Source of the DNA: Sulfitobacter sp. HGT1
GTDB taxonomy: Bacteria > Pseudomonadota > Alphaproteobacteria > Rhodobacterales > Rhodobacteraceae
Direction of reading: 5' to 3'
DNA length: 64,000 bases
NCBI RefSeq assembly: GCF_013282155.1
Contig: NZ_BLWI01000001.1
Location: 248,001-312,000, forward strand
The position numbers were made by a program, and so were the translations under genes. The notes beneath the pieces are model-generated. The model was not told where the DNA came from. It ran no database searches and saw only the letters and a list, made by a program, of their open reading frames with translations. Positions 30,922-54,357 of the stretch are shown here, piece by piece; position 1 is the first letter of the stretch; every line of letters starts with the position of its first letter.

Positions 30922-30953
30922 GGCTCACCTGGTTAACAAGGGATGAACGGCTT
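30922..30953 (-). promoter_or_regulatory. CtrA-like promoter module upstream of the small ORF and pdeM
   Basis: This 32-bp block matches the one at 54327-54357 upstream of dprA at 28 positions, with 3 substitutions and one gap. On the minus strand it contains TTGTTAACCAGG, including the GTTAACC type of half-site bound by CtrA in alphaproteobacteria. It lies 35 bp upstream of the small ORF start. CtrA binding is inferred from the half-site only. Confidence 0.65.
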
Positions 30954-30956
30954 TGG

Positions 30957-30982
30957 CTTCACCCTTTTAAAAATACTCAAAA
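30957..30982. repeat. 26-bp inverted repeat, arm between lhr and the promoter module
   Basis: Perfect complement of 30799-30824; the two arms are 132 bp apart and flank the promoter module and the first third of the small ORF. It begins 35 bp after the lhr stop, the usual place for the dispersed repeat family. Confidence 0.85.
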
Positions 30983-31016
30983 AGACCGCGATCGAAACCA
31001 AAGGCGACGGATGTGG

Positions 31017-33467
31017 TTACCAGCCTACCCTCCACCGTGGGGTATTGGAGGGGGCGGGCGTTATGTTGGCCAATCCGGAGGCTTCCATCAGACGCGCCGC
31101 TTCTTGCGCCAGCAATCGTTCCTCGGCGTCGCCTTTGACGGGGACACGCCCTGCTTCCAGAAAAAGCGGTGCCGAAAGGGGGGTGACTTTATCTAAGACG
31201 CGGTGGTCGATCCGGCTGCCAATACGTGACAACATTTCTTCGATCCGCCCAAAATCAACCAACCCGCGCAGGGCCTCTTGGCGGGTGATGTCGAGCATCA
31301 GGTGGTCGGGGTCGTATTTCATGAGCGTGTCGTAAAGAATGTCAGAGCTGAAGGTCGCTTGTCTGCCGGATTTCCGGGCCTGTGGCGTGTTGCGTTCAAT
31401 CAGTCCGGCGATTGTGGCTGACGCGCGGAAGGTACGTTTCATCACGGCGTTTCCGGCCAACCAAAGATCCAGCCCGTCGTGTAATGCGATTGGGTCAAAA
31501 AGCGGTGCCGGATCTTGCACGGGGTCCAGGCCCCAGATCAATGTGGCATAATCGGTTGCCACAAATCCAAGCGGGTTGAGCCCAAGTTCTTCCATGCGTT
31601 TGGTCAAAAGAAGCCCGAGGGTTTGCTGGCCGTTGCGCCCTGCGAAGCCGTAAATCACGGTTTGCGCGCGCCCGTCGTGGGGAAAGCTTTCGACCAGTAG
31701 GCGGCCGGGTTGGGGCAGTTGGCTGACCTCGCGTTGCAGGGCCAGCCACTGCGCTGTGTGCTCGGGCAAGTCGGGCCAGCTTTCTTGGGTGAACATCCGT
31801 TGCACCCGTTCTGATAGCTGCGTCGAGGTCGCGAATTTCGTGCCCATGAAAGATGCGATGCGCGGCTTTTTCGCGGAATCGCGGCTGACTTCAACAGTCA
31901 TTTCGCGCAGGCCTTCGTATTTGACGATCTGCCCGCCGATCAGAAACGTATCGCCTGCCGTTAGGGTCGCGGCGAAGGCTTCTTCGATTTCGCCCAGAGG
32001 TTTGCCGCCCCGGTTGCGTTTCATGCGGACCTTGAGTGTATCGGTGTCCTGGATCGTGCCGATGTTCATGCGGATGCGTTGGCTGCTGCGCGGGTCGCGC
32101 AGGGTCCAGAGCCCGTCCCGCAGCATCAGGCGTTGCCATTTGTCATAGGCCCGCAGAGCGTAGCCACCGGTCGCGCAGAAATCGAGGCAGGCGTCGAACT
32201 CGGGGCGGGTCAGTGCCGCATATGCGCCGGCGGAGGTGACTTCGGCAAAGAGCGTGTCTGCATCAAACGGGCCGGCGCAGGCCGTGATCAGGATGTGCTG
32301 GCACAGCACGTCGCGGGGGCCGGGGCCGCGCGGGTCGCCGTCCAGCTCTCCGGCCAAGACCGCTTCGAGAGCCGCCACGCATTCGACGACTTCGAAGCGG
32401 TTGGCGGGGACCAGCAGGGCCTTGGACGGGGCGTTGTAGCGATGATTGGCGCGGCCAATGCGTTGAACAAGGCGTTTCACATTCTTGGGCGCGCCGATCT
32501 GGATGACCAGATCCACATCGCCCCAGTCGATGCCCAGATCAAGGCTGCCGGTACAGACGATCGCCCGCAGGTCGCCACGCACCATTGCGGCTTCGACGCG
32601 TTCGCGTTGGGTGCGGTCCAGCGACCCGTGATGGATGCCGATGGGCAAGCTGTCGTCATTCGCCAGCCACAGGTTGTGAAAGAAAATCTCGGCCTGGGCG
32701 CGGGTGTTGTGGAAAATCAGCGTCGTTTTATGCTGCTGGATTTGATCAAGAACTGCCGGAATTGCATAGGCCGCGCCGCCGCCCGACCACGGCGGGGCCT
32801 CAGCAGTGCGCAGCATCTGGATGTCGGGGGGGGGGCCGGGATCGGCCAGAAGGATCGGGCAGGGGTCAGGGTGACGCGCCATGAAATGCGCGATGGCGGC
32901 CGGGTCTTCGACCGTGGCAGACAGGCCAACCCGTTTGAGATCGGGGCAAAGGGTTTGCAGCCGCGCCAGCGCCAGCATCAACTGGTCGCCACGTTTGCTT
33001 TCTGCCAAGGCGTGGATTTCATCAATCACAACCCGTTTGAGGCCTTTGAACATGCGCGGCGCGTCCTCGTAAGAGGTCAGCAGGGCCAGGCTTTCGGGGG
33101 TGGTCAGCAGGATATGGGGCGGGTCGGCCCGTTGGCGGCGTTTGCGGGTTTGTGAGGTGTCGCCCGTGCGGTCTTCGATCCGGATTGGCAGGTCCATTTC
33201 GGTGACCGGCGTCGTGAGATTGCGTTTGATGTCGGCGGCAAGGGCTTTGAGCGGGGAAATATAAAGCGTGTGCATCCCCTTGTGGTCACCATCGGCCAGA
33301 TCGACCAGCGTGGGCAGGAAGCCGGACAGGGTTTTACCACCGCCTGTGGGGGCGATCAGCAGAAGGGCGGGGGCGTCTGCGCGGTCCAGCATGGCTTGCT
33401 GGTGCGGATGGACTGTCCAGCCTTTGCTGTCGAACCATGTGGTGAATTGGGGCGGAAGGATGTGCAT
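31017..33467 (-). CDS. lhr: Ligase-associated DNA damage response DEXH-box helicase (Lhr family)
   Basis: An 816-residue Lhr-core helicase of the ligase-associated subgroup. Walker A GGGKTLSG is near residue 42, DEIHALAESKRGDQ near 155, SATVEDPAAI near 186 and the motif VI region QRIGRANHR near 335. Winged-helix and Lhr C-terminal domains follow. I start at ATG 33467 (MHILPPQFTTW); the further in-frame extension lies in a repeat-rich intergenic zone. No clear ribosome site is visible. The group is thought to act with PdeM, ligase and exonuclease in DNA repair. Confidence 0.9.
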   Translation of the reverse strand: MHILPPQFTTWFDSKGWTVHPHQQAMLDRADAPALLLIAPTGGGKTLSGFLPTLVDLADGDHKGMHTLYISPLKALAADIKRNLTTPVTEMDLPIRIEDRTGDTSQTRKRRQRADPPHILLTTPESLALLTSYEDAPRMFKGLKRVVIDEIHALAESKRGDQLMLALARLQTLCPDLKRVGLSATVEDPAAIAHFMARHPDPCPILLADPGPPPDIQMLRTAEAPPWSGGGAAYAIPAVLDQIQQHKTTLIFHNTRAQAEIFFHNLWLANDDSLPIGIHHGSLDRTQRERVEAAMVRGDLRAIVCTGSLDLGIDWGDVDLVIQIGAPKNVKRLVQRIGRANHRYNAPSKALLVPANRFEVVECVAALEAVLAGELDGDPRGPGPRDVLCQHILITACAGPFDADTLFAEVTSAGAYAALTRPEFDACLDFCATGGYALRAYDKWQRLMLRDGLWTLRDPRSSQRIRMNIGTIQDTDTLKVRMKRNRGGKPLGEIEEAFAATLTAGDTFLIGGQIVKYEGLREMTVEVSRDSAKKPRIASFMGTKFATSTQLSERVQRMFTQESWPDLPEHTAQWLALQREVSQLPQPGRLLVESFPHDGRAQTVIYGFAGRNGQQTLGLLLTKRMEELGLNPLGFVATDYATLIWGLDPVQDPAPLFDPIALHDGLDLWLAGNAVMKRTFRASATIAGLIERNTPQARKSGRQATFSSDILYDTLMKYDPDHLMLDITRQEALRGLVDFGRIEEMLSRIGSRIDHRVLDKVTPLSAPLFLEAGRVPVKGDAEERLLAQEAARLMEASGLANITPAPSNTPRWRVGW

Positions 33468-33525
33468 GGGAGGTAAGATAGGGTGCGATTGCGCAGGAAA
33501 CAGCCCCGGGCCCGGCAATAAGATT

Positions 33526-33572
33526 GGGGGCCAGCCCCCAAACCCCCGGAGTTTACATGGCAAAATGAAATC
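33526..33572 (+). repeat. Dispersed intergenic repeat, copy F, with hairpin
   Basis: GGGGGC-CA-GCCCCC hairpin followed by CCCCCGGAGTTTACATGG and AAAATGAA, a degenerate copy of the GC-hairpin plus GAGTATTT-type element. It fills the gap between lhr and the next gene. Confidence 0.5.
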
Positions 33573-34365
33573 AGGGGCGGGGTGTCAGGCTTCTAATCGC
33601 GGATTGAACGAGTTCGGGCAGCGCTGTGTCGGCATTCGTCGGGGCGGCATCGAGGGCGCTGGCAACGTCTTTGACAAGAATACCGATGGTGTTATCGGCG
33701 GCAAAACCGTCGCGGGCGAATTCGATGTCATTGAAGCCCGAGGCCAGCCAGTTCTGGCCGGAGGATGTGTGAATGAGCTTGAGGAGTTTTCTTTCATCCA
33801 GTCCGGCCTGATCGGCCCAATCCAGCACGAGGCGGGTCATGGCGGTGTTTGAGGCGGCTAGCAGGTTGTTGAGAACCTTGGCCTGCATGCCTGCACCGAA
33901 GTCGCCCATATGGTGGAAATGTTTGCCCATGGCGTTGAGCAGGGGTTGCGCGTTTTCCAGATCATCGCTGTCCCCGCCCAGCATGAAGCTGAGGCGCGCC
34001 TGTTCGGCCGCGATCTGGGCACCGGACATGGGGGCGTCGATCAGGGTGATATGAGGTGGCACGCGGTCGCGCAGGCCAAGCACGTAGCGCGGGCTGAGGG
34101 TCGAGCAGACGATGATCCGGCGCAGGCTGGGAATGGCGGTGAAATTCTGATCGCCGAATAGCACCGCATCGGTCTGGTCGATGTCACGCACGACGGTGAT
34201 CAGCGTATGGAGGTCTTCGGAGAAGACGGCGATGTCGTCGGTGATGTGTGCCAGATCGGAGGGCACCACGTCATAGCCCCGCGCGGGCAGGTCAGCCGCC
34301 CGCAGCGCGGCCAGCATAGGCGCGCCCATGCGGCCACAGCCTGCGACACCGATCAAAGACCGCAT
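33571..34365 (-). CDS. NAD(P)-dependent 3-hydroxyacid dehydrogenase family protein
   Basis: A 264-residue beta-hydroxyacid dehydrogenase related to 3-hydroxyisobutyrate and tartronate semialdehyde reductases. The Rossmann GVAGCGRMG is at 6-14, the substrate motif DAPMSGAQIAA near 110, and the catalytic Lys lies in QAKVLNNLL near 168. It is about 30 residues shorter than usual members, the gap lying in the N-terminal half. The exact substrate is unknown. It ends at 33571, in a repeat, and its start is 4 bp after the AAA+ gene stop, so it may ride on the pilus operon. Confidence 0.85.
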   Translation of the reverse strand: MRSLIGVAGCGRMGAPMLAALRAADLPARGYDVVPSDLAHITDDIAVFSEDLHTLITVVRDIDQTDAVLFGDQNFTAIPSLRRIIVCSTLSPRYVLGLRDRVPPHITLIDAPMSGAQIAAEQARLSFMLGGDSDDLENAQPLLNAMGKHFHHMGDFGAGMQAKVLNNLLAASNTAMTRLVLDWADQAGLDERKLLKLIHTSSGQNWLASGFNDIEFARDGFAADNTIGILVKDVASALDAAPTNADTALPELVQSAIRSLTPRP

Positions 34366-34369
34366 TGCA

Positions 34370-35677
34370 TCATTTCACGATGTGTTCGTCTTTGACGAAC
34401 ATGTTGGCCCAGGCGCGGTCCATCAATTCGGGGGTCATTTGGTAGGGTATTCCTTCGAATTCGCAGATTGCGATGATCTGGTCGATCAGGAAGATCGGCT
34501 GATAGTTCGCGAATGTATTGTCGATCGTGGGGTATTTATTCTTGAGCAGGTGGATCAGGGTTGGTTCATCCAAGGGCATCTTGCGCTTTTTTGCAACCAT
34601 CGCAAAGATCTTGAGGAAGTTTTTCTGGTTCGGCCCGTCGATCTTGATCTTGAAGAAGATGCGGCGCAAGGCGGCTTGGTCAAAGATTTCGTTCGGGTGG
34701 AAGTTGGTCGAGAAGATCACCAGCGTGTCAAAAGGCACCTCGAATTTCTCGCCCGATTGCAGGGCCAGGATATCCTTGCTTTCCTCAAGCGGAACGATCC
34801 AGCGGTTGACGATGCTTTGGGGTGGTTCCTTCTGGCGGCCAAGGTCATCGACGATGAAGATGCCACCTGTCGATTTCAGCTGAAGCGGGGCCTGATAGGT
34901 GCGCGCCGTGGGGTTGTAGACCAGATCGAGCATATCAAGGGACAATTCGCCACCCGTGATGACCGTGGGGCGTTCGCATTTGACATAGCGGCTGTCATAG
35001 CGGGTCACGCGGCGCAGGGAATTGGGGTCTTGTTCCTCGTCCGAGGCGGCGGAATGCACGATGGGATCATAGACGGTGATGACCTGCGACGCATATTCGA
35101 TCGCGCGGGGGACGAATATCTTGTCGCCAAGCGCGTCGCGGATGCCATTCGAGATGCTGGATTTACCGTTGCCGGGTGGGCCGTACATCAGGATCGAGCG
35201 GCCGGCAGACACGGCAGGCCCGAGGTTGCCGATCAATGCGTCGGGCAATACCAGATGGCCCATTGCCCCTTCGAGCTGGGCGCGGGTGATTTGCATGTTG
35301 CGCACCGACTGGCGCTCAACCTGCTCGCGGTAGACCTCGAGCGGGACCGGCATGGGGCCGAAATATTCGGACTGGGCAAGGGCATCAAGCGCGCGCGCCT
35401 TGCCCAAATCGGTCAGTTGATAGCCCATTTCATTGCCGTTATTGGCGTTCAGCGTGCCTGTTGCCTCCAGAAGGCGTTGGTCGCGGGCCATGTCGACCAG
35501 TTCCTGGGTGACCTGAATGGGCAGACAAATCGCTTTTGCGACTTCGCTGACCATCGTGACATTCTTGCGGTACATGGTTTTGATCATGATATCGCGCATC
35601 ATGACGACGGGCAGTTTCATGTCTTCGATGGTGCGCGGTGGCGGCGGTGCCAGCACGGTAGAGTTTTGCATGTTCAT
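34370..35677 (-). CDS. AAA+ ATPase at the end of the Tad pilus locus
   Basis: A 435-residue AAA+ ATPase. A winged-helix-like N-terminal segment (about 20-110) precedes Walker A MYGPPGNGKSS near 167-177, Walker B IFIVDDLG near 276-283 and sensor-1-like FSTNF near 322. I start at ATG 35677 with AGAGGG upstream; the longer frame to 35719 is not supported. Its place next to cpaA suggests a pilus-linked or secretion-linked job, but the substrate is unknown. It resembles no standard Tad component. Confidence 0.75.
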   Translation of the reverse strand: MNMQNSTVLAPPPPRTIEDMKLPVVMMRDIMIKTMYRKNVTMVSEVAKAICLPIQVTQELVDMARDQRLLEATGTLNANNGNEMGYQLTDLGKARALDALAQSEYFGPMPVPLEVYREQVERQSVRNMQITRAQLEGAMGHLVLPDALIGNLGPAVSAGRSILMYGPPGNGKSSISNGIRDALGDKIFVPRAIEYASQVITVYDPIVHSAASDEEQDPNSLRRVTRYDSRYVKCERPTVITGGELSLDMLDLVYNPTARTYQAPLQLKSTGGIFIVDDLGRQKEPPQSIVNRWIVPLEESKDILALQSGEKFEVPFDTLVIFSTNFHPNEIFDQAALRRIFFKIKIDGPNQKNFLKIFAMVAKKRKMPLDEPTLIHLLKNKYPTIDNTFANYQPIFLIDQIIAICEFEGIPYQMTPELMDRAWANMFVKDEHIVK

Positions 35678-35743
35678 GAAAAGGCCCTCTGGGTCGAATG
35701 ATCGTTGACTGGAGATCAAACTAGCAGGCGAATATGGCGTAAT

Positions 35744-36238
35744 TCAGGCTCCGAACAGCGCGCCGAGGATCAAATATATGGCAAGAGCAGGACCGAGCGC
35801 CAGCCCCATGGGGAATTTCCTGGTTTGATCCCAGCTGGTCCAATCGGGTGCCAGTTTGCGCAGGGGGGTATATTTTACACCGCGGTGCGTGACGGCTGCC
35901 GCCAATAGCGTCGCCATGAACAATGCCATCATCAGCCGCAAATCACCCAAGGCAATGAAAGGCACGCCGGCGGCAATGAATTTCGCGTCACCCGCCCCCA
36001 TCGCCCCGACGGCATTCAAGAAGATGCCGATGATCAAGGTGACGACCATGGCGAGCAGATGCCAGAGGTACGTTTCGAGCGGCAGGGCAATCGGGCCGAT
36101 GATCAAGAAGACGGCACCCAATGCCAGCACTGTCGGGTTGGTGATCCGCATGGATGCCAAATCGGTGTAGGCTGCATAAAGGCACAGTGGCAGGACAAAG
36201 GGTAAGAACCAAACCGCGGCATAGACGGTGATCGACAT
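35744..36238 (-). CDS. cpaA: Prepilin peptidase CpaA/TadV
   Basis: A 164-residue aspartic membrane protease of the TadV/CpaA type, shorter than the PilD type because it lacks the methylase domain. The two catalytic Asp motifs are visible: TDLASMRITN near 25-34 and GAMGAGDAKFIAAG near 78-91. It should cut the Flp pilins after Gly. It lies between the TPR lipoprotein and the AAA+ gene on the minus strand. Confidence 0.9.
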   Translation of the reverse strand: MSITVYAAVWFLPFVLPLCLYAAYTDLASMRITNPTVLALGAVFLIIGPIALPLETYLWHLLAMVVTLIIGIFLNAVGAMGAGDAKFIAAGVPFIALGDLRLMMALFMATLLAAAVTHRGVKYTPLRKLAPDWTSWDQTRKFPMGLALGPALAIYLILGALFGA

Positions 36239-36244
36239 CCCCCG

Positions 36245-37099
36245 TCAGCCCGCGTTTTCCAGCGCACGAAGCGACCGGACGGCTGTTTCAAAATGCTGCG
36301 GATGGGTGTTGATTGCGTCTTGAAGCAACCCCTTGCCGGTTTCCACATCGCCTTTTTTGATCGCGGACAGGGCAAGCGTGTGCAACAGCTGGGCGCGTTC
36401 GGTCTGGTCCATCTCGATCGGGGGCAGGGTGTATTCACGCTGTGCGCCACGGGCAAGGATCAGGTTGTTCTTGGCGGTGAACAAGGTCGGGTCTTGGCGG
36501 ATCGCATCGCCAAACAACCGTTCGGCAGCTTTGTATTCGCCGCGTGTCAGCTTGGAATAGCCCCAGTTGTTCATAACCGATGCGGGTTTCGTGGTCAGAC
36601 CGATTGCGATTTCATAAAAGCTGTCGGCCTTTTCCCATTCCTGCTTGCTGTCGGCGACGATCGCCTCGAGACGGTAGCGGTTATAGGTTTCATGGGTAGG
36701 GGGCACCGCATCAAGGGTCTTTTCGGCCCTTGCCCAGTCGCCAGAGCGGATCAGCGCATCGGCATAATCAACGCTGTCGTCGGAGGTGGTGTCTTCCATC
36801 TTTACAATCTTTGCCCAGACGGCGGCGGCTTCGGTATACCGTTTTGCACGGACCAGAGATTTCGCCAAACCACGTTTGATATCAATCCGCTCGGGGCTTT
36901 CCTTTTCGGTGCGGGCGAAATAATTCACCGCCTCGTTCGGGTCCGCGACCGTCAGCATGACATCATTCAGATTTGTTTCATCAATCACGTTCACGTCTTG
37001 AAACGCGCGTGAAACGGTGTTGTCACCGGATTTGTCTCCACAGCCTGCAACAGCGGTGACGCCTGCAATGCAGGCGGCCAAAATCATGGGGTGGCGCAT
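36245..37099 (-). CDS. TPR lipoprotein in the pilus operon
   Basis: A 284-residue lipoprotein: the signal peptide ends in a lipobox-like AVAGC (Cys about residue 20). Several tetratricopeptide repeats fill about residues 70-250. A TPR protein is common next to tadD in Tad clusters, likely acting in pilus assembly at the outer membrane. The start at 37099 is ATG behind AGGA. It begins 29 bp downstream of the tadD stop. Confidence 0.8.
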   Translation of the reverse strand: MRHPMILAACIAGVTAVAGCGDKSGDNTVSRAFQDVNVIDETNLNDVMLTVADPNEAVNYFARTEKESPERIDIKRGLAKSLVRAKRYTEAAAVWAKIVKMEDTTSDDSVDYADALIRSGDWARAEKTLDAVPPTHETYNRYRLEAIVADSKQEWEKADSFYEIAIGLTTKPASVMNNWGYSKLTRGEYKAAERLFGDAIRQDPTLFTAKNNLILARGAQREYTLPPIEMDQTERAQLLHTLALSAIKKGDVETGKGLLQDAINTHPQHFETAVRSLRALENAG

Positions 37100-37128
37100 T
37101 TTTGCGTCCTTTTACTGCTCTGCCTCGG

Positions 37129-37728
37129 TCATGGTACCGGCCGGAGTAGGTAGTCACCCGAACCGCGCCGTACCAATTTATAATCTTCTTCTTGAGATGG
37201 GATCGTAGCAGAGTTTTCTGATTTTGCGAGTGCTAAGCGTAAATTGTCGCGGATTGCGTCACTTTCGCCATTATCCAGCGCATACGCCTTGCGAAATGTC
37301 AGATTTGCCTCGGCTAATTTGCCACGTTCCATCAAAACAACGCCCAGATTGTTCCAGACTTCGGGCTGTGTATCGTCTTTGGCCACGGCCTCGCGAAGCA
37401 GCTTTTCCGCCTGACCCAGACGCCCCAGACCCAGATTGGCACTGCCCAGACCTGACAGGATTTCGGCGTTCAATTCGGTGGCCAGGGCCGCACGGTTAAA
37501 GGCGCGGATGGCCAGCTCGTATTCACCGGCCTTCATCAGGCGATGGGCGACCTCGACACCGTCTTCGGCGTCCTTGCGTTGGTTCACGCCGGGGGCAAAG
37601 GGGTTGGCGTCGGTACGCGATACCCCGAACGCGGGAAAACCGCCTGTTGAACAGGCGGTTAATCCGGTGGTGATTGTCAAACAAAGTACAAGCGTTGGAA
37701 GACGCTTGAGACTTTGGTGCTTGATCAT
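37129..37728 (-). CDS. tadD: TadD TPR lipoprotein
   Basis: A 199-residue lipoprotein with an LTAC lipobox (Cys about 26) and three or more TPR units (about 60-170), including LGSANLGLGRLGQAEKLL and LGVVLMERGKLAEANLTF. TadD is needed for Flp pilus biogenesis, probably as an outer-membrane pilotin-like factor. The ATG overlaps the tadC stop by ATGA, so the two are coupled. Confidence 0.85.
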   Translation of the reverse strand: MIKHQSLKRLPTLVLCLTITTGLTACSTGGFPAFGVSRTDANPFAPGVNQRKDAEDGVEVAHRLMKAGEYELAIRAFNRAALATELNAEILSGLGSANLGLGRLGQAEKLLREAVAKDDTQPEVWNNLGVVLMERGKLAEANLTFRKAYALDNGESDAIRDNLRLALAKSENSATIPSQEEDYKLVRRGSGDYLLRPVP

Positions 37729-38693
37729 CTTGTACCTTCACCTAGCTGGGTAATGCCAATGACCGACGGTGCTACCAGAATGATGAGCAAAGGCGGTACT
37801 GTGAGCATCATTGTGGCAAGGGTCATCTTGGTTGGCAACTTGTTTGCGGCTTCTTCGGCACGCATCACGCGTTTATCCCGCATTTCATCCGCATAAACCC
37901 GAAGCGCATCCGAAATCGACGTACCAAAGGCAGCGGATTGAACCAGAACGGTCACGAAGGATGAAATATCCTGAATGCCGCAGCGCTCACCCATATCGTT
38001 CAAGACGTTGATCTTGTCTTTGCCCGCTTTCATTTCATAAGCGACGACTTCGAATTCCTCTGCCAGGGCCGGGTATGACGCGTGAAGTTCGTGGGCAACA
38101 CGTACGATACATTGATCCAGTGATTGCCCCGCTTCGACGCAGACCAGCATCATATCCAGCGCATCGGGAAAGCCGCGGGTGATTTCCTCTTTGCGCTTTG
38201 CGACGCGTTTGTTCACCCAATAGCGCGGCAGGTAATAGCCCAAGCCACCCGGCCCAACGGTATAGATCATCATCTTTTGTGTGGTCAGACCTTCGCCGCC
38301 GCCCAGAAAGTTGACATAAACAATACCGACCACAAGGCCGAGTATGCCAAGGATCATCTGGGCAAAGTGGAAGAACCGCACCGCATCGCGCGAGGAATAG
38401 CCCGCCTGACGCAGCATCAGTTCTTTCGCGCTCAGTTCCTCGATGTTTTCGGGTTCAAGGAACTTTGCGAATTTCTGAAGCTGCTCGTTGCGGTCGGTTT
38501 GGCGCAAGCGCTGTTGTGACGGACGGCCATCGGACGCCCCCGACTGGGTGCGCTTGAGCTTGGTCAGCGGGTCTTCGGGCTGGCGCGCGATGAACAGAAT
38601 GGTCAGGCCGATCATCGTCAGCCCCATAACGCCCAGCAAGACAATCCAGCCAAGCGGCCCCATCATGTCGTTGATCGAAGAAAAAATACTCAC
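37725..38693 (-). CDS. tadC: Tad pilus inner-membrane protein TadC
   Basis: A 322-residue type II secretion F-domain protein, one of two platform subunits of the Flp pilus. A hydrophobic helix at the N-terminus (about 8-32) is followed by the F domain, with helices near 130-150, 160-180 and 290-310 and the conserved FPDALDMMLVCVEAGQSL near 180-197. The start is GTG at 38693 behind GGGGGAT. tadB lies 9 bp upstream. Confidence 0.92.
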   Translation of the reverse strand: MSIFSSINDMMGPLGWIVLLGVMGLTMIGLTILFIARQPEDPLTKLKRTQSGASDGRPSQQRLRQTDRNEQLQKFAKFLEPENIEELSAKELMLRQAGYSSRDAVRFFHFAQMILGILGLVVGIVYVNFLGGGEGLTTQKMMIYTVGPGGLGYYLPRYWVNKRVAKRKEEITRGFPDALDMMLVCVEAGQSLDQCIVRVAHELHASYPALAEEFEVVAYEMKAGKDKINVLNDMGERCGIQDISSFVTVLVQSAAFGTSISDALRVYADEMRDKRVMRAEEAANKLPTKMTLATMMLTVPPLLIILVAPSVIGITQLGEGTR

Positions 38694-38702
38694 GATATCC
38701 CC

Positions 38703-39665: not shown

Positions 39666-39676
39666 GACGGGTATCC

Positions 39677-43341: not shown

Positions 43342-43345
43342 CTGA

Positions 43346-45844: not shown

Positions 45845-46043
45845 TTTGTTTACCTCATGTATTCATCCGCCAGAGTGTGTCTGGCGCTTGTTCAGTTCCC
45901 AGCCTACAGGTCGAATATGGCCTGAATATGGAACGTCGGCGTCAATACTGGGCCGATGGAAAGTCAAGGTAATGCCCAAATCCACGGCGCAGCTTTTCGG
46001 GGGCCTCAAAGGCCTGTCGCGTGACGGGAAGCGATATTCTCAA

Positions 46044-46217: not shown

Positions 46218-46256
46218 GCTTTGCGCCTTTCGGCGTTAAGGTGGTTGCATTGAAAA

Positions 46257-46287
46257 TGGCCGCACCCTGTCGTGCAGAATGCGGCCA
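46257..46287 (-). terminator. Attenuator-like hairpin after flp1
   Basis: TGGCCGCA pairs with TGCGGCCA (8 bp, 15-base loop) and on the minus strand is followed by TTTTC. It lies between flp1 and flp2 with a CTAAG-rich stretch at 46295-46336. Partial termination would give much more pilin mRNA than machinery mRNA. Confidence 0.55.
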
Positions 46288-46338
46288 ATCGTATCTTAGC
46301 GAACTAAGACTAAGCTAAGTTAGCTAAAGATCTTAGGA

Positions 46339-46524
46339 TCAAACGGAACCAGGAGTAACGGTGCCCATGTAGCTGTTGGTGTTGCTTGTCAGGTTCGACG
46401 CGCCAGTTTCGATCGACGAGTAAGCTGCAACGGCCAGGCCAACAACTGCGGCTGTCAAAACAACCCAGTCAACTGTTACGGCGCCGGATTCGTCTTTGTT
46501 GAAGTTTTTGATAAAGTTCATCAT
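46339..46524 (-). CDS. flp: Flp family type IVb pilin
   Basis: A 61-residue pilin, MMNFIKNFNKDESGAVTVDW then a hydrophobic helix of about 20 residues and a Ser/Thr/Asn-rich tail. CpaA should cut after Gly15, leaving AVTVDW. The start at 46524 (or ATG 46521) has GGAGGG 7 bases upstream. It is the first gene of the minus-strand pilus operon. The usual Glu-Tyr of Flp pilins at positions 5-6 is Asp-Trp here. Confidence 0.92.
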   Translation of the reverse strand: MMNFIKNFNKDESGAVTVDWVVLTAAVVGLAVAAYSSIETGASNLTSNTNSYMGTVTPGSV

Positions 46525-46892
46525 GGTATGTCCCTCCAAGGATCATTAGGTTTTTCAATCTCAACCCTGTCGACCGTGTGTAGCGCTGTATCTCTCAATT
46601 AAGCGCCTGTTCGACTTGGTATGACGCTATATAGCCGTCTGAATGGGGCATGAATTTGGCGACAATTGTGACATTTGTACTTTTCTCGCGGATTGGCCGC
46701 CAAATGGCACTAGCTCCTTGATTTTAATGCTTAAAAAATCTTAACTTTTTAAAAATCATTATAAAGCGCGCCGGTTTGAACTTGAATTAAGGCGTTTTGG
46801 ACACAATCCATGCCACGATTGGCTGGTTTTGGGACCGTTTTCATGTGATATTCCGCGTATCGAGCAGAATAAGCATAAAAAAGCAGGCAAAG
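46525..46892. other. Divergent flp / transglycosylase promoter region
   Basis: A 368-bp gene-free stretch. Minus-strand TATATA near 46630-46635 could be a -10 box for flp. An A/T-rich block at 46721-46760 carries four TTAA tetramers, including TTAA-N6-TTAAC at 46731-46745, one base short of the CtrA full-site spacing (N7). Nothing else is seen. Confidence 0.4.
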
Positions 46893-47693
46893 ATGTTTCG
46901 ATTATTGACGGTCTCGCTGGTAGCGGGGGCATTGGCGGGGTCAATGCTCTATGCTGATGCGCCTAAACCCTTTCCCAAGTTCGAAGCAAAACGGGTGAAA
47001 CCGCCCAAGCCGGGCAGCGTCAACAGAATTGACGTGTTCATTGAACCACAGGCGTCCTTGCCTCAGGTTGTGGCGACCCCATCGGGTGCCATTGCCCCGG
47101 CTGCACCCGGTCAGTTTGACTGGTTCTGGGAACGCGTATCGCCCGAGGTCGCCAAATCAGGGCCCGGCAGGCTCGAGGTGGCGATGATCACGCTTGCCAC
47201 CGCAACAAACAAAGTACCCGCTCCCCGGATGCAGCAGATGCAAGAGATCGCGAAAGCCAACGGTGTTGATATCTTGCGCTCAACCATCGGGACCAAGGTT
47301 TCGCCGGCACTGGTTCTGGCCGTGATCACCGTTGAATCCGCAGGGCGGGCAGATGCCGTGAGCGGGGCAGGGGCTCAAGGGCTGATGCAGCTGATGCCGG
47401 ACACGGCCGCGCGCTTTGGTGTCGATGACAGTATGATGCCGACCCAGAACATCCAGGGCGGCGTAAAGTATCTTGATTGGTTGATGGGGCAGTTCGACAG
47501 CGACCCCATTCTGGTGCTGGCCGGATATAATGCCGGCGAAGGGAATGTGCGCCAACATGCGGGCGTGCCGCCCTTTGCCGAGACGCGCGATTATGTGCCC
47601 AAGGTTCTTGCGGCCTTTCAAGTGGCCAAAGGGCTGTGCCAGACGCCGCCCGAACTGATTTCCGACGGCTGCGTTTTTGCGGCAATGAATTAG
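46893..47693 (+). CDS. Lytic transglycosylase (SLT domain)
   Basis: A 266-residue periplasmic peptidoglycan-cleaving enzyme. A hydrophobic N-terminus (about 3-20) acts as signal or anchor, and the SLT fold spans about 110-235. The catalytic Glu is in VITVESAGRADAVSGAGAQG, followed by LMQLMPDTAARFGV and the AGYNAGEGNV motif. I start at ATG 46893; a longer frame begins at 46797 without a ribosome site. Divergent from the pilus operon, it may open the wall for the pilus machine, but that is inference. Confidence 0.85.
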   Translation: MFRLLTVSLVAGALAGSMLYADAPKPFPKFEAKRVKPPKPGSVNRIDVFIEPQASLPQVVATPSGAIAPAAPGQFDWFWERVSPEVAKSGPGRLEVAMITLATATNKVPAPRMQQMQEIAKANGVDILRSTIGTKVSPALVLAVITVESAGRADAVSGAGAQGLMQLMPDTAARFGVDDSMMPTQNIQGGVKYLDWLMGQFDSDPILVLAGYNAGEGNVRQHAGVPPFAETRDYVPKVLAAFQVAKGLCQTPPELISDGCVFAAMN

Positions 47694-47826
47694 GGAACGG
47701 CCCCGCAGGCGATTCGCCATAAGGCCATCGGGTACAAACGGCGGCTGTGCTGCTGCTTTTTCCGGTCTGGTATGCCGGCGCATCCATTCTTGGGCTCTGG
47801 TGGCCCCGCAAATGGTTCAAGGCACG

Positions 47827-47860
47827 AAAAAGGGCACCAACCCTGACGGAGGTGCCCTTT
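47827..47860 (-). terminator. Terminator of scoB
   Basis: AAAGGGCACC pairs with GGTGCCCTTT, loop of 12 bases, and on the minus strand the stem is followed by TTTTT. It lies 21 bp after the scoB stop and may also end the convergent transglycosylase gene. Confidence 0.8.
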
Positions 47861-47881
47861 CACTTTCGTATCGCGAAACGG

Positions 47882-48505
47882 TCAGACGATGGTGGCGAAG
47901 GTCGCTGCGCGCAGCTCTTCCTCAGACACGCCATCGGCGCATTCCACGATCTTCAGCCCGCCTTCGACCACATCCAGCACACCAAGGTTGGTGATGATGC
48001 GGTCAACCACTGCTTTGCCGGTCAGGGGCAGGGTGCATTCTTTCAGCACTTTGCTTTCGCCGTGCTTGTTGGTGTGATCCATCACGACAACCACGCGGCC
48101 AACACCGGCCACCAGATCCATCGCGCCGCCCATACCTTTGACCAGCTTGCCCGGAATCATCCAGTTCGCCAGATCGCCGTTTTCGGCAACTTCCATCGCG
48201 CCAAGGATCGCCATTGCGATCTTGCCACCGCGGATCATCCCGAAGGATGTCGCACTGTCGAAATACGCGGTCTGGGGCAGTTCGGTAATGGTCTGCTTGC
48301 CTGCGTTGATCAGGTCGGCATCCTCGGTCCCCTCAATCGGGAAAGGGCCCATGCCCAGCATCCCGTTTTCGGATTGCAGGGTCACTTCGACGCCTTCAGG
48401 GATGTAGTTCGACACCAGCGTCGGAATCCCGATGCCCAAGTTCACATACCAGCCGTCTTGCAGTTCCAACGCGGCGCGCGCCGCCATTTGATTGCGATCC
48501 CACAT
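47882..48505 (-). CDS. scoB: 3-oxoacid CoA-transferase subunit B
   Basis: A 207-residue beta subunit of succinyl-CoA:3-ketoacid CoA transferase. The catalytic Glu lies in the [10 protein letters not shown] motif near 49-58, as in the ScoB/AtoA family. [16 protein letters not shown] is near 23-38. It activates acetoacetate for use of ketone bodies or polyhydroxybutyrate. It starts 1 bp after the scoA stop, and both are followed by a terminator. Confidence 0.94.
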
Positions 48506-48506
48506 A

Positions 48507-49202
48507 TTATGCGCTCCTTACCGTGCGTTGTTCGATCCGCTTTTCATGTTCGCCCTGAACAATGCGATGCACATAGATGCCGGGCAGGTGGATTGTATCG
48601 GGGTCAAGGCTGCCTGTCGGGACGATCTCTTCGACTTCGGCGATGCAGATTTTGCCACACATCGCGGCGGGCGGGTTAAAATTGCGGGCTGTCTTGCGGA
48701 ACACAAGGTTGCCGGTCGCATCAGCCTTCCACGCCTTCACGATGGACAGATCGGCAAAGATGCCTTCTTCCATGATATAGGTTTCACCGTTGAAATCCTT
48801 GTGCTCTTTGCCATCGGCAATCACGGTACCCACGCCGGTTTTGGTATAGAAACCGGGGATGCCCGCACCACCGGCACGCATGCGCTCTGCCAAAGTGCCT
48901 TGGGGGTTGAATTCAAGCTCAAGCTCGCCACCAAGATACTGGCGCATGAATTCTTTGTTTTCACCGACATAAGAGCTGATCATTTTCTTGACCTGCTTTG
49001 TCTGCAACAAGATGCCGATCCCGAAATCATCAACACCAGCGTTGTTTGATGCAAAGGTCAGGTCCTTGGTGCCCGCATCGCGGATCGCTGAAAGCAGCAG
49101 TTCAGGGATGCCGCACAAGCCGAAACCACCGGCCGCAATCAACATGCCATCGTGCAGCACACCATCCAGCGCTTCAGCAGCACTTCCATATATTTTCTTC
49201 AT
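48507..49202 (-). CDS. scoA: 3-oxoacid CoA-transferase subunit A
   Basis: A 231-residue alpha subunit of the CoA transferase. The glycine-rich [10 protein letters not shown] motif is near 25-34, followed by [12 protein letters not shown] near 52-63, the usual CoA-binding signature. The start at 49202 is ATG. It forms a heteromer with ScoB encoded just after it. Confidence 0.94.
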
Positions 49203-49558
49203 TCCGGGTCCTTTCGATCGCGGGGTTACCCCGCTCGTCTACATGCATGCCAACTTCTATGACGCCACGTTAGGCGGGTGTCAAATAGGCCTCAGGCGCA
49301 CCCGTAAAGATGCGCCTGAAAATAGCTGTAAATCGAATGCTGGCATTTCAGATGCGTATTTCCGCGCCGTCGATCCGGATGGCAGGGGGTGCCTTGTTGC
49401 CAAAGGTCAGCCCCTGAATCCCGCTTGTGATCAAGCCGGTAAATACCCCCGCTGTGGCGTGGCCAATTTACCTGCCAGGCCGCGCCCCTTGATCAATCCA
49501 ATCTCGCGCAGTGTTCCCATTGGAGGGCGCGAGACCGCAATGCAGCCACAGATTCTCG
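49203..49558. other. Gene-free region upstream of scoA
   Basis: A 356-bp stretch without a supported gene. The only clear structure is a 9-bp perfect inverted repeat, TCAGGCGCA at 49292-49300 and TGCGCCTGA at 49311-49319, centred about 103 bp upstream of scoA. It could be an operator or an mRNA hairpin. Confidence 0.4.
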
Positions 49559-50134
49559 TCAGATGATCCGCACTTGCGTCCCAACCGGCGCGATCTGGAA
49601 CAGTGCCTCGATCATGTGGTTATACAGACCGATACACCCGTCCGAGCTTTGCCGTCCGATCTTGCGGGTGTCGTGGGTGCCGTGGATCAGATAGGCGGGC
49701 CAGCCCAGATACATGGCGTGCGTGCCCAACGGGTTATCGGGGCCGGGGGGCATGTATTTCAGGTCGGGATCGCGTTCGATCATGCTGGAGGTCGGGGTCC
49801 AGTCGGGGCCGACACGTTTGCGCATGATCTTGGTGTACCCCCGTTTGGTCAGCTCGTCGCTGCGCGGTACCGAGGTGGGGTAGATGTTGTAGGTCTCGCC
49901 ATCACCGCTCCAGAAATGCAGGGCGCGTGATGTTGTGTCGGCAACAATTGCCGCTTTGCCCAGATCGTCAAAGTGATCCTGCCAGCGCTGTTGGGTAAAG
50001 CTGGATGTGTTGTGACGTACCGCTTCGCCCTGCCGTTCAGGCTCTGCCGTTTGGGCGCGCAGGATAGAGGGCATGAATAACGTGGCACCCGCCACCGTCA
50101 TCAACATGCGACGTGAAATCTTCTGCTCGGCCAT
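49559..50134 (-). CDS. Tat-exported L,D-transpeptidase (YkuD family)
   Basis: A 191-residue enzyme that cross-links peptidoglycan or attaches proteins to it. A twin-arginine signal (KISRRMLM then a hydrophobic stretch) is followed by the YkuD catalytic domain (about 70-190). The catalytic region reads HGTHDTRKIGRQSSDGCIG, with the nucleophile Cys about residue 170. The common motif is SHGCIR; here it is SDGCIG. The start has AAGGAG upstream. It is downstream of topA on the same strand. Confidence 0.85.
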   Translation of the reverse strand: MAEQKISRRMLMTVAGATLFMPSILRAQTAEPERQGEAVRHNTSSFTQQRWQDHFDDLGKAAIVADTTSRALHFWSGDGETYNIYPTSVPRSDELTKRGYTKIMRKRVGPDWTPTSSMIERDPDLKYMPPGPDNPLGTHAMYLGWPAYLIHGTHDTRKIGRQSSDGCIGLYNHMIEALFQIAPVGTQVRII

Positions 50135-50234
50135 CCTTGTGCTCCTTATGCTGTGGCATTCGCTGCACAGGTGACACTTGGATGGCCTCGCGGCAATTCA
50201 CATATTCATGAATTACCATACGTTCACGAAATGG

Positions 50235-52892
50235 TTATTCTGTTTCCTTGGCCGCGGCCTTTTTAGCCGGCGCTTTCTTCTTTGCAGCGGGTTTTTTAGC
50301 AGCAGGCTTCTTTGCAGCGGGCTTTGTGGCTGCCGCTTTCTTGACCGGTGCCTTTTTGGTCGCCGCTTTGCGCTTGGCCGGTGACTTGGCCAGCTTTTCC
50401 TCGATCAACTCGACAGCGCGTTCCATGGTCAGATCGGCAGGCTCGATTTCCTTGGGCAGGGTCGCGTTGACCTTTTCCCATTTCACATAGGGCCCGTATT
50501 TGCCTTCCATGATATGCACGTCGCCGCCCAGATCAGGGTGTTCGCCCATCTCGCGGATCGGTTTCGCCGCCTTGCCACGGCCACCACGGCTGGCGACTTT
50601 TTCGGCCAGCAATTGCACAGCACGGTTCATGCCAACGGTAAACACTTCGTCCAACCCTTCGAGGTTGGCATTTGTGCCGCCGCGATCCGATGTGCTGGCC
50701 GCGTGTTTGATATAGGGGCCGTAGCGTCCGATGTTGGCCCAAACCATAATCCCGTCTTCGGGGTGGGGGCCAATCTCGCGCGGCAATGAAAGCAGCATCA
50801 AGGCGCGGTCCAGCTCCAGCTCCTCTGCGGGCCAGTCTTTTGGCACAGACTGACGCGGCGGCTTTTTGTTTTCTTCGGTGACGGGCCCGCGCTGGACGTA
50901 GGGGCCAAAGCGGCCTTTGAACACGCGAATTTCGTCACCGTTGTCTTCGCCCAACAGCTTGCCATCCGGCGGGATCGCAGATTTTTCCGCTTCGGGGTCT
51001 GGCGGGCCAAAGGGGCGCGTATAGCGACATTCAGGGTAGTTGGAGCAGCCAATGAATGCGCCGCCCGAGCGTGCGGTGCGCATCGACAAACGACCGACCT
51101 CGCAATTGGGGCACAGACGCGGGTCTTTGCCATCTTCGGTCGCCGGGAAAAGATGCGGTTCCAGAACCTCGTTGATCTTTTCCAACACCTCGGTGATGCG
51201 CAGATCGGCTGTCTCGGCAATCGCTGCCGAAAAATCTTTCCAGAAACGGCTTAGAACGTCTTTGTAATTCGCATCAGCAGCACTGACCTTGTCCAGCTGG
51301 TCTTCCAGATCGGCGGTGAAATCATAGCCGATATATTTGCGGAAATAGTTTTCAAGAAACGCGGTAACCAGCCGGCCTTTGTCCTCGGGGAACAGACGGT
51401 TGCCTTCCTTGCGGACATATTCGCGGTCCTGGATGGTGGTGACGACGCTTGCATAGGTCGATGGCCGACCGATCCCCAACTCTTCCATACGCTTGACCAA
51501 TGTCGCTTCGGTATAGCGCGGCGGCGGTTGTGTGAAATGCTGTTCGGGCGTGACCGACCGCTTGTCCATCTTGTCGCCCTGATTGATCTGGGGCAGGCGC
51601 TTGTCGTCCTCGTCCACCACATCGTCACGGCCTTCCTCGTAGACCCGCAAGAAGCCGTCGAATTGCACGACCTGACCGGTGGCGCGCAGGCCGACCTGTT
51701 CATCCTTGCTGCCGATTTCGACAGTTGTCCGTTCAAGACGGGCGCTTTCCATCTGACAGGCCAGCGTGCGCTTCCAGATTAGATCATACAGCTTGCGCTG
51801 GTCCGGTTCGGTCAGTTTCAGCGCGGCGGCATCCTTGGACATGTCCGTGGGCCGGATACATTCGTGCGCTTCCTGGGCGTTCTTGGCCTTGTTTTTATAG
51901 ATACGCGGGGCCGATGGCACGTATTCCGCGCCAAACCGGTCTTTGATCGCATCTCGGGCCATTGTCATCGCCTCGGGGGCCATGTCGATACCATCGGTCC
52001 GCATATAAGTAATGTGACCGGCCTCATACAAACGCTGGGCGGTGCTCATGGTCTGGCGCGCACCCATGCCGAATTTGCGGCTGGCCTCTTGTTGCAGGGT
52101 CGAGGTCATGAAGGGGGCCGAAGGGTTCCGGCTGGCGGGCTTTGCCTCGACGCTCGTGACCGTAAGATCGCGGCTGGTGATCGCCTGCACTGCCATTTCG
52201 GCCTGCGTGCCATTCGCCAGATCAAAGCGATCCAGCTTTTTGCCGGCAAGGGTGACAAGGCGTGCTTCGAATTCCTGGCCGCGCGGGGTGGCGACCAATG
52301 CTTTCACGCTCCAATACTCGCGGTTGCGGAACGCTTCGATTTCCATTTCGCGCTCTACGATCAACCGCAGTGTCACCGATTGCACGCGACCTGCCGATTT
52401 CGCACCGGGCAGCTTGCGCCACAAAACCGGCGACAGGTTAAAGCCGACAAGATAGTCCAGCGCACGCCGGGCCAAATAGGCTTCGACCAGTGGCATGTCG
52501 ACCTGGCGCGGGTTTTTCATCGCTTCGGTCACGGCGGATTTTGTAATCGCGTTGAAAACAACCCGGCTGACCGGCGTATCCTTCTTGATCGATTTGCGGG
52601 CAGTCAGCGCCTCTTGCAGGTGCCAGCTGATCGCTTCCCCTTCGCGGTCGGGGTCGGTCGCGAGGATCAGTTCGTTATCGTCTTTCAACGCGTCGGCAAT
52701 TGCTTTGACGTGCTTTTTGCTGGTCGAAGCGACCTCCCAAAGCATTTCAAAATCATTGTCCGGATCAACCGACCCATCTTTCGGAGGAAGGTCACGCACG
52801 TGACCGTAAGACGCTAGAACAGTGTAGTTGCTGCCCAGGTAAGAGTTGATCGTTTTGGCCTTGGCAGGTGATTCGACGACAACAACTGGCAT
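50235..52892 (-). CDS. topA: DNA topoisomerase I
   Basis: An 885-residue type IA topoisomerase relaxing negative supercoils. The TOPRIM domain begins at residue 2 (VVVVESPAKAKT), the active Tyr lies in ITYMRTDG near 295, and a four-Cys zinc finger (CPNC then CSNYPEC) is near 600-630. Two further C-terminal TOPO domains follow, then a Lys/Ala-rich tail of about 50 residues with PAAKK repeats, thought to help DNA contact. It is followed after 100 bp by the transpeptidase gene. Confidence 0.96.
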   Translation of the reverse strand: MPVVVVESPAKAKTINSYLGSNYTVLASYGHVRDLPPKDGSVDPDNDFEMLWEVASTSKKHVKAIADALKDDNELILATDPDREGEAISWHLQEALTARKSIKKDTPVSRVVFNAITKSAVTEAMKNPRQVDMPLVEAYLARRALDYLVGFNLSPVLWRKLPGAKSAGRVQSVTLRLIVEREMEIEAFRNREYWSVKALVATPRGQEFEARLVTLAGKKLDRFDLANGTQAEMAVQAITSRDLTVTSVEAKPASRNPSAPFMTSTLQQEASRKFGMGARQTMSTAQRLYEAGHITYMRTDGIDMAPEAMTMARDAIKDRFGAEYVPSAPRIYKNKAKNAQEAHECIRPTDMSKDAAALKLTEPDQRKLYDLIWKRTLACQMESARLERTTVEIGSKDEQVGLRATGQVVQFDGFLRVYEEGRDDVVDEDDKRLPQINQGDKMDKRSVTPEQHFTQPPPRYTEATLVKRMEELGIGRPSTYASVVTTIQDREYVRKEGNRLFPEDKGRLVTAFLENYFRKYIGYDFTADLEDQLDKVSAADANYKDVLSRFWKDFSAAIAETADLRITEVLEKINEVLEPHLFPATEDGKDPRLCPNCEVGRLSMRTARSGGAFIGCSNYPECRYTRPFGPPDPEAEKSAIPPDGKLLGEDNGDEIRVFKGRFGPYVQRGPVTEENKKPPRQSVPKDWPAEELELDRALMLLSLPREIGPHPEDGIMVWANIGRYGPYIKHAASTSDRGGTNANLEGLDEVFTVGMNRAVQLLAEKVASRGGRGKAAKPIREMGEHPDLGGDVHIMEGKYGPYVKWEKVNATLPKEIEPADLTMERAVELIEEKLAKSPAKRKAATKKAPVKKAAATKPAAKKPAAKKPAAKKKAPAKKAAAKETE

Positions 52893-53137
52893 AAATTTCC
52901 GTACCTTGGATCAATTGAAATAGGTCTGCTTGTGCTGTGACATGTGGCGTAGCGGTTGTTTTGTCAATGCGCAGGTCGGGCGAAACTAGGCCGCTTGCCG
53001 GCCAGTGGCACAAGGCGGGCTGACTTTGGGGGGCAGGATTATTCCAAACCTACTGCCCGGTACCAATGTTCGTTTTAGGAGAATCGGGGGGAGGTGTTTC
53101 GCGGAATGCGCGTTAGGAGCTTTGGATAAAACCGCCC

Positions 53138-54292
53138 TTAGGCACGAGAGACAAGACCACCGGGCTGGCGTCGCACATGGCCTTCCAGCTCAAGATCGAT
53201 CAGGACGGGCGCAACCTTGGAGGAGGGGGTGTTTAAATCCCTGATCAATTGATCCTCGGCGATGGGGCTGGGCCCCAGCCGCGACAGGATTTGCAGATGA
53301 AGCGCCGCAGTTTCCCGAAGCGTTCTTCGCGGGGCGGGGGCTTTTTCTGCTGCCGCAAGATCAAGCTCGGGCTGGGCGGGTACCGACAAACATGCTTTTC
53401 CCAGAACCTCGATAACATCTGCGGCATTGCGCACCAAAGCCGCGCCATCGCGGATCAGCATGTTACATCCGGCTGCGCGCGCATCAAAGGGGTGACCGGG
53501 CACGGCCAGCACGTCGCGGCCCTGATCCAAGGCATCGCGCGCGGTGATCAGGCTGCCTGATCTGGCAGCGGCCTCTACCACGATGGTTGCGCGGCTTAAT
53601 CCGGCGATGATCCTGTTCCGGCTCGGAAAATGGCGGGCCATCGGTTGCAGGCCCATGGGTTGTTCTGAAACGCGCAGGCCCGTCTTGGCGATATCCTGGG
53701 CCAGTTGGGTGTTTTCGGCGGGGTACATCACGTCAACGCCGCCCGCCTGAACCGCAATCGTGCCAGTGGCAAGCGCCGCCAGATGGGCCGCCGCATCAAT
53801 ACCGCGCGCCAGCCCTGATACGACAACGAAACCGGCCTCGCCCAAGCCTTGGGCCAGTGCCTTGGCCATGCGCGTGCCCAGCGAGGATGCATTCCGCGCC
53901 CCGACCATTGATATTGTGGGGCGGTTTAACAGCTGGGTATTGCCAATCACCCAAAGGAAGGGGGGCGCATCGTCAAGTTCAGCAAGGGTTTGTGGGTATT
54001 CCGCAGTGCCATGCATGATCAGACGCGCGCTTGCGTCTTTGCCAGCACGCAGTTCGGCGCGCACCACCCCTTCGGGGCAAACCTCGTAATTCGCGACGCC
54101 CGCGGCGCGCGCCACCGTCGGCAGCGCGGCCAGCGCATTCTGCGCAGTGCCATGTTCGGTCAGCAGTCGTTTATACGTCGAAACGCCAACCCGGCGCGAG
54201 CGCAACAAACGAAGACGGGCAAAACATTCGTCTTCCGAGGTGGGTGGGATTGGGGGGTGAGTGGAAGAAGGATTGTGGTCCTTGTCAGTCAT
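53138..54292 (-). CDS. dprA: DNA processing protein DprA
   Basis: A 384-residue Rossmann-fold protein that loads RecA on incoming single-stranded DNA. It has an N-terminal SAM-like helical region, the core motifs MVGARNASSLGTR near 132, VSGLARGIDAAAH near 160 and SRNRIIAGLSRATIVVEA near 225, and a C-terminal winged-helix. In Rhodobacter capsulatus, dprA is needed for uptake of gene transfer agent DNA and is controlled by CtrA. The start has GGAG, and the 31-bp promoter module sits 35 bp upstream. Confidence 0.94.
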   Translation of the reverse strand: MTDKDHNPSSTHPPIPPTSEDECFARLRLLRSRRVGVSTYKRLLTEHGTAQNALAALPTVARAAGVANYEVCPEGVVRAELRAGKDASARLIMHGTAEYPQTLAELDDAPPFLWVIGNTQLLNRPTISMVGARNASSLGTRMAKALAQGLGEAGFVVVSGLARGIDAAAHLAALATGTIAVQAGGVDVMYPAENTQLAQDIAKTGLRVSEQPMGLQPMARHFPSRNRIIAGLSRATIVVEAAARSGSLITARDALDQGRDVLAVPGHPFDARAAGCNMLIRDGAALVRNAADVIEVLGKACLSVPAQPELDLAAAEKAPAPRRTLRETAALHLQILSRLGPSPIAEDQLIRDLNTPSSKVAPVLIDLELEGHVRRQPGGLVSRA

Positions 54293-54326
54293 CCCGTATC
54301 TCCGTCTGTTGCTAGAATCAGGTATA

Positions 54327-54357
54327 GGCAGACCTGGTTAACAACGGATGAAGGCTT
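54327..54357 (-). promoter_or_regulatory. CtrA-like promoter module upstream of dprA
   Basis: Matches the 30922-30953 module at 28 positions. The minus strand carries TTGTTAACCAGG. A GANTC site (GAATC at 54315-54319), target of the CcrM methylase, lies between the module and the start codon. Both suggest cell-cycle or CtrA control, by inference. Confidence 0.65.

Follow-up and report, generated by a model that had tools for sequence, protein, structure and literature searches.

The window analysed here, a 64-kb stretch of genomic DNA, holds two similar blocks of sequence, one before dprA and the other between an lhr-type helicase gene and pdeM, and the question raised by this locus is what the two blocks have in common and which genes they serve. 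The original prediction took them to be one promoter module, a conserved block at a fixed distance from two start codons, and read this as a sign of a CtrA regulon joining dprA and pdeM. The answer given below is that the first block is probably the promoter of dprA and the second that of a new small RNA family, widespread in the bacterial family and probably activated by CtrA.

Two CtrA-type boxes in the 64-kb window

The alignment of 30922-30953 with 54327-54357 was reproduced with 28 matches, 3 substitutions and 1 gap, as was the spacing of 35 bp on the minus strand, from 30922 to the first base of an ATG at 30887 and from 54327 to the ATG of dprA at 54292; the equal distances join unlike things, however, namely the true start codon of dprA and an ATG that lies within a predicted RNA hairpin. 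The part common to both blocks is TTCA-N7-TTAACC on the minus strand, a CtrA site of the full type which agrees with TTAA-N7-TTAA at 7 of 8 letters. The motif GTTAACC had been described as a CtrA half-site, and while its assignment to the CtrA type was upheld, both sites are of the full type, with a second TTnA element 11 bp away. That the block might be a frequent repeat was also checked: the 19-bp core CTGGTTAACAASGGATGAA, allowing up to 3 mismatches, occurs in just these two places of the 3.82-Mb genome (0 matches for the reversed pattern), and the block is therefore not a frequent repeat. The word GGTTAACAA is present 3 times in the window as compared to 0.20 expected, its third occurrence being at 908-916. 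The degenerate pattern TTMA-N7-TTAACC is by itself weak, with 15 places in the genome versus 8 for its reversal, so that the argument must rest on conservation. On this point the proposed module failed, as in the 13 genomes with both loci that were compared (our own and 12 relatives) the two boxes agree outside the TTnA-N7-TTAA skeleton at 15 of 24 positions here and at 4 to 9 of 24 in the 12 relatives (ungapped); the likeness of 28/32 was rejected as a conserved module because among the genomes compared the extra identity beyond the box was seen in this one only.

In the case of dprA the box itself is well conserved. A box lies 59 to 62 bp before the dprA start codon in 30/30 regions (29 relatives and our own genome; DprA matched in 53 genomes, of which these are the best 30, all of one genus), of which 29 score 7/8 against TTAA-N7-TTAA and one scores 6/8. 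Downstream of the box a TATA is found at the same distance in 25 regions and with a one-base shift in 3, and it is absent from 2 (L019 and L035). In G017, the relative with the closest DprA, the box is degenerate (TTCATCAATGCTTTAGC). The spacing from box to -10 in the dprA promoter is nearly equal to that of the small RNA, and it would therefore appear that both blocks have a common architecture. The claim that dprA is under CtrA was supported by the retention of the site in 30/30 regions and by the lower dprA expression of CtrA-phosphorelay mutants of Phaeobacter inhibens and Dinoroseobacter shibae (PMC12363192); as these published data agree, control of dprA by CtrA is already known and is not new.

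A predicted structured RNA between lhr and pdeM

The second block is situated in the lhr-pdeM gap of 290 bp, which contains a perfect inverted repeat of 26 nt and an inner one of 11 bp (Table 1). The minus strand from 30912 to 30803 folds with -46.8 kcal/mol (z -4.05, 1 of 200 shuffles being as good) into two hairpins, the 5′ one bearing a tetraloop as well as an internal loop and the next one long and terminator-like, and both were recovered by RNAalifold from 9 sequences. The core at the predicted 5′ start of the RNA can be written [G/A]CGGUACAGG, and 22 nt separate the second CtrA box from the RNA start.

Table 1. Features of the dprA and lhr-pdeM regions, in positions of the window
Feature	Position	Strand	Evidence
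dprA	53138..54292	-	PF02481 (2.1e-72), PF21102, PF17782
Predicted CtrA-type full site of dprA, TTCATCCGTTGTTAACC	54336..54352	-	Motif match; kept in 30/30 regions
Putative -10 of dprA, TATACC	54321..54326	-	TATA at equal distance from the box in 25/30
pdeM, metallophosphoesterase; judged not to be a target of the box	30061..30726	-	PF00149 (6.3e-07); name from the original prediction
lhr-type helicase, upstream gene, start uncertain	31017..33563	-	PF08494, PF19306, PF00270; scanned from 33458
Predicted CtrA-type full site, small-RNA promoter, TTCATCCCTTGTTAACC	30931..30947	-	Exact TTMA-N7-TTAACC; 5′ nucleotide at -39 from RNA 5′ end
Putative -10 of small RNA, TACAAC	30915..30920	-	Approximates the A(+16)/T(+20) enrichment in 110 members, one base off register
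Predicted structured small RNA, 96 nt, model R1	30813..30908	-	R1 100.3 bits; fold; covariation
5′ hairpin GCGGU-ACA-GGCU-GGAG-AGCC-GAUG-GCCGU, with SD-like tetraloop and GAUG loop	30880..30908	-	
Terminator-like hairpin, then U-rich end	30814..30879	-	Outer stem 30869-30879 / 30814-30824; inverted repeat, fold
Outer inverted-repeat arm 1, overlapping terminator stem	30799..30824	.	26-nt perfect inverted repeat
Outer inverted-repeat arm 2, upstream of CtrA box	30957..30982	.	26-nt perfect inverted repeat
54-codon ORF of the original prediction; judged not to be a gene	30723..30887	-	Frame length unconserved

A covariance model, R1, was made of the RNA letters alone, the promoter being excluded, using nine sequences among which was that of the window. 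In an alignment of 73 distinct members, which was fitted to R1 and in that respect favours structure, 97.9% of cells were paired and 21 of 27 pairs changed on both sides, with 284 two-sided cells as compared to 66.7 in shuffles (0 of 500 as high) and 23 to 45 in controls with a slid structure; two-sided changes were seen at 10 of the 11 pairs of the outer terminator stem, and the 5′ hairpin is free of gaps. The 74 loci that entered this alignment had been chosen for the core, and the invariance of core letters is thus partly due to selection, whereas the covariation is not. A larger set of 138 loci (L138-L275) yielded 120 members after removal of 17 without the core regular expression and of one duplicate; L196-L275 were hand-picked from the hit lists as second copies or next in rank, and are non-random. 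Three of the 17 loci lacking the expression (L212, L220 and L229) display, by eye, extra double changes at stem pairs that are invariant or nearly so in the 73. The tetraloop of the 120 members is GGAG in 49, GGGA in 33, GAGG in 15, GCGG in 7 and GGGG in 6, exceptions being for example GCCG and GACA, and this SD-like loop lies, strikingly, 5 nt upstream of the AUG of the internal loop GAUG. The expression requires GAUG in the 120, but of the 17 loci free of that selection 15 have it too. A search of Rfam 15 at E<=10 gave nothing relevant in this region of the window, two miRNA models falling far short of their cut-offs, and at gathering score 9 loci gave 0 matches. The locus has a covarying structure and, as judged by sequence, its own promoter, an intrinsic terminator and an intergenic place, as would a small-RNA gene.

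The promoter was assessed relative to the RNA 5′ end, the position of which was set by conservation. A box, taken as at least 6 of the 8 letters of TTAA-N7-TTAA at -40 to -37, was found in 113 of the 120 core members, and the 17 loci lacking the expression contributed another 15 (128 of 137, the other 9 falling below 6/8), as compared to 1 of 592 control upstream windows, and its frequency was alike in loci returned by the search (53/56) and in those picked by hand (60/64). Counted over the 120 members, TTAA stands 82 times at -28/-27 and 32 times at -39/-38, and no other position between -70 and -4 has it more than 6 times. When 110 of these promoters were aligned they read TTAAC-N6-TTAACC, the second element having T 0.91, T 0.88, A 0.89 and A 0.97, together with a weak -10-like signal consisting of A at +16 and T at +20 from the second TTAA. 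The full CtrA motif of Caulobacter, TTAA-N7-TTAA, is located near -35, and at -39 in ctrA P2 (PMC4287350), while the activity of flgB2 of R. sphaeroides is lost when elements at -35 and -27/-28 are changed (PMC6180460). The predicted small-RNA promoters are similar to ctrA P2 (PMC4287350) and flgB2 (PMC6180460) in having TTAA-N7-TTAA, its 5′ base at about -39 of the presumed RNA start as in ctrA P2, and perhaps in the -10, of which there is a weak putative signal; they differ in that TTCA or GTAA frequently stands as the first element, and the CtrA site here is one predicted from sequence.

The bacterial family searched, which we take to be the Rhodobacteraceae, commonly harbours this RNA sequence. 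R1 matched at E<=1 in 47 of the 58 genus genomes, and at E<=0.1 in 229 of the 295 genomes searched for the family, often 2 to 4 times per genome. With at most one mismatch the core pattern was detected in 303 of 394 family genomes and was lacking in 91, the reversed control being found in 9 of 394. The window's own genome has a second copy on contig C9 (24082-24170, 50.5 bits). At class level, again with at most one mismatch, 14 of 372 genomes matched (reversed 3 of 372); 11 of the 14 are outside the bacterial family, 8 of these 11 match exactly, and the 5′ hairpin is part of the minimum-energy fold in 6 of the 8 (not in G598 or G599). Plasmid records gave 31 matches at E<=1, some of them weak, from Phaeobacter, Paracoccus, Rhizobiaceae, Azospirillum, Rhodovastum and Thiothrix among others, and in 4 of 7 plasmid loci inspected the minimum-energy fold has the 5′ hairpin. 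By eye, no CtrA box was seen at the copies outside the bacterial family (plasmids and a few genomes), and CtrA control would therefore be a trait of this bacterial family only. Phage records gave no match at E<=1.

Several further features of these copies were observed. On plasmids (L288-L294) the core is mostly intergenic and near genes for replication, partition, toxin-antitoxin, conjugation or integrase functions (L292 and L293 are unannotated), and it occurs on a plasmid even of the gammaproteobacterium Thiothrix; a single IMG/VR contig of 67 kb (L316) bears the exact core. The second copy in three genomes of the genus (L196, L204 and L205) is flanked, by eye, by acyl-CoA dehydrogenase-like and CoA ligase-like genes; acyl-CoA dehydrogenase-like genes also adjoin L168, L169, L171 and L173, and a glutathione-S-transferase-like gene adjoins L168, L171, L173 and L281, likewise by eye. 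Upstream of the box a third copy of the terminator-stem strand lies in some members, reading AAAGGGTGAAG here and AAAGGATGAAG or AAAGGGTGCAAG elsewhere and tracking the species' own version; it was counted in 29 to 30 of 119 members (119 of the 120 were used) versus 2.7 to 3.8 in shuffles, with words of 10 and 9. Outside the window our own genome also contains seven lone copies, GAGTATTTnn[A/G]AAAGGGTGAAG (L005-L011), several of which are near gene ends by eye; in type they match the arms that flank the small RNA.

Alternative readings of the two blocks

The most direct alternative is that the box drives an operon of the small ORF and pdeM within a CtrA regulon that also includes dprA, and here box, RNA, ORF and pdeM do share one strand, with the ORF stop overlapping the pdeM start (30723-30726), so that read-through is possible. 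The neighbourhoods of the best 80 of 580 PdeM relatives, the best being Sulfitobacter, argue against such an operon. The RNA core, the highly conserved centre of the related stretch before pdeM (GCGGTACAGGCTGGAGAGCCGATGGCCGT), was found within 600 bp of pdeM in 8 of the 80 and was missing in 72, and in 2 of the 8 (L043 and L104) the entire stretch, RNA and box included, is inverted and points away from pdeM; the distance of the box is constant to the RNA core and not to pdeM. TTNA-N7-TTAAC was present within 500 bp before pdeM in just 4 of 81 loci, and all 4 also carry the RNA. With the ORF unconserved and a terminator-like hairpin preceding pdeM, we consider this operon very unlikely and the pdeM regulon was rejected; of the original reading, the CtrA-type site and the control of dprA stand, while the extension to pdeM does not. 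It is very unlikely that the sites belong to LexA (SOS), which would call for GTTC-N7-GTTC. One of the two (site 1) does read GTTC-N7-GTTA, and a LexA site has been predicted before dprA of D. shibae in a paper that, in the part available, does not list dprA among the genes named as having CtrA sites (PMC6473078); dprA is also without mention in the available part of a paper on D. shibae CtrA (PMC4046655). The LexA pattern was nevertheless discarded, as the second element is of the GTTA or ATTA type, not GTTC, in 30/30 dprA regions, and the letter frequencies of that element in the 110 small-RNA promoters tell against it as well.

As the AUG of the GAUG internal loop is the start of the small ORF, the transcript could instead be a tiny CtrA-controlled mRNA, in which the tetraloop would act as SD for an AUG 5 nt on, a micropeptide MT[AV]xGE... 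would be made and the hairpin would be a structured ribosome-binding site. This is consistent with a tetraloop that is nearly always SD-like, with GAUG in 15 of 17 unselected loci and with codons 2 to 6 being stop-free in frame 0 (stops within 5 codons in 0 of 120 members, where the two other frames have 38 and 70), but just 14 of 74 members have a frame-0 stop before the RNA ends, most would thus be non-stop messages, and the frame runs from 11 to 59 or more codons. In addition, the variation at positions 3 and 7 after the AUG follows base pairing, their partners being RNA positions 5 and 1. The variable frame length and the few internal stops make a conserved peptide unlikely; a conserved small ORF was accordingly rejected, no conserved frame with a stop being found, and the ORF that had been proposed as a gene is not upheld as one. 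We regard the tiny mRNA as improbable. Little weight is likewise given to the idea of a mobile palindromic, MITE-like element that happens to bear a CtrA-type promoter, for which the 26-nt perfect terminal inverted repeats of this genome, the occurrence of both orientations at one locus among relatives, the lone arms elsewhere in our own genome and the plasmid copies can be cited. Against it are the constant neighbours of the second copy in three genomes of the genus, one neighbour kind recurring in other genera (by eye), the lower conservation of the arms relative to the RNA core, again by eye, and the restriction of the upstream third stem copy to 29-30 of 119 members.

Possible function of the RNA family and its relation to known systems

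The small-RNA reading, which we prefer, may be put as follows. Both blocks would be CtrA promoters of the activating type, 54336-54352 for dprA and 30931-30947 for a free-standing RNA of about 96 nt, and phosphorylated CtrA would recruit RNA polymerase jointly to dprA and to the small-RNA genes. About three quarters of the genomes of the bacterial family carry such a predicted gene, often more than one, and nearly all copies have a box 38-39 bp upstream. The RNA would then be expected to work in trans by way of two elements, the exposed and nearly always G-rich tetraloop (mostly GGAG, GGGA or GAGG) and the conserved ACA/GAUG internal loop. We infer transcription of the small RNA, its start site, the binding and activation by CtrA, and a pairing partner of the loop. 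The combination of G-rich tetraloop and AUG suggests a mimic of a translation start, and our guess for the last step is that the RNA imitates a ribosome-binding site and either titrates C-rich small RNAs of the anti-SD type or competes at mRNA starts. As a tentative proposal, with a rather low chance of being correct, the family may thus be a decoy switched by CtrA, whose multicopy SD tetraloop and AUG internal loop would sequester either initiating ribosomes or small RNAs of the anti-SD type. That such a decoy would work while the CtrA programme of DNA uptake, gene transfer agents and motility is switched on is an equally speculative suggestion. It is possible that the hairpin acts at the level of DNA.

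The closest known case is CcnA of Caulobacter crescentus, a noncoding RNA presumed to be CtrA-activated, which is located at the replication origin, has a CCCC loop and is proposed to act on ribosome-binding sites (PMC8959179). Both are alphaproteobacterial RNAs that are presumed to be activated by CtrA and for which an action on ribosome-binding sites is proposed; they differ, as compared by description, in that CcnA is at the origin with a CCCC loop while the RNA described here is dispersed and often multicopy with a G-rich tetraloop (PMC8959179). The C-rich loop A of CcnA was not found, the tetraloop being G-rich in nearly all of the 120 members. Alphaproteobacterial regulatory RNAs such as AbcR, alpha-r14 and CcsR have C-rich anti-SD loops; they resemble the present family in being short RNAs of hairpin form whose exposed loop is close to SD or anti-SD sequence, and differ in that the loop here is G-rich and no Rfam match was obtained in the loci searched. 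Gruell and colleagues (RNA Biol, 2017) are said to have found R. capsulatus small RNAs that change in a ctrA mutant, which involves the same wider group and the same regulator, and some of those RNAs may belong to the family described here. Small RNAs have been published as a list for R. pomeroyi (PMC4809877) and also for Paracoccus (PMC5107571). In openly licensed main texts, nothing recognisable as the present family was found, a search with the core letters returned only unrelated papers, and little was found on a small-RNA arm of CtrA in Rhodobacterales. The family would therefore appear to be a new one within a known kind of regulator, the unusual mix being a presence in about three quarters of the genomes of its bacterial family, often in multiple copies, and the constant spacing of a CtrA-type box.

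In Rhodobacterales, CtrA is the coordinator of motility, gene transfer agents, competence and quorum sensing (PMC6473078), and for a possible small-RNA arm of CtrA the RNA family provides both a model with which genomes can be searched and a means of testing it directly. What is probably a misreading is corrected as well, as scans for CtrA sites would credit boxes of this kind to the adjacent protein gene, as occurred with pdeM here. If the decoy proposal is true, such RNAs would represent a new class that extends throughout the bacterial family and, on plasmids, beyond it.
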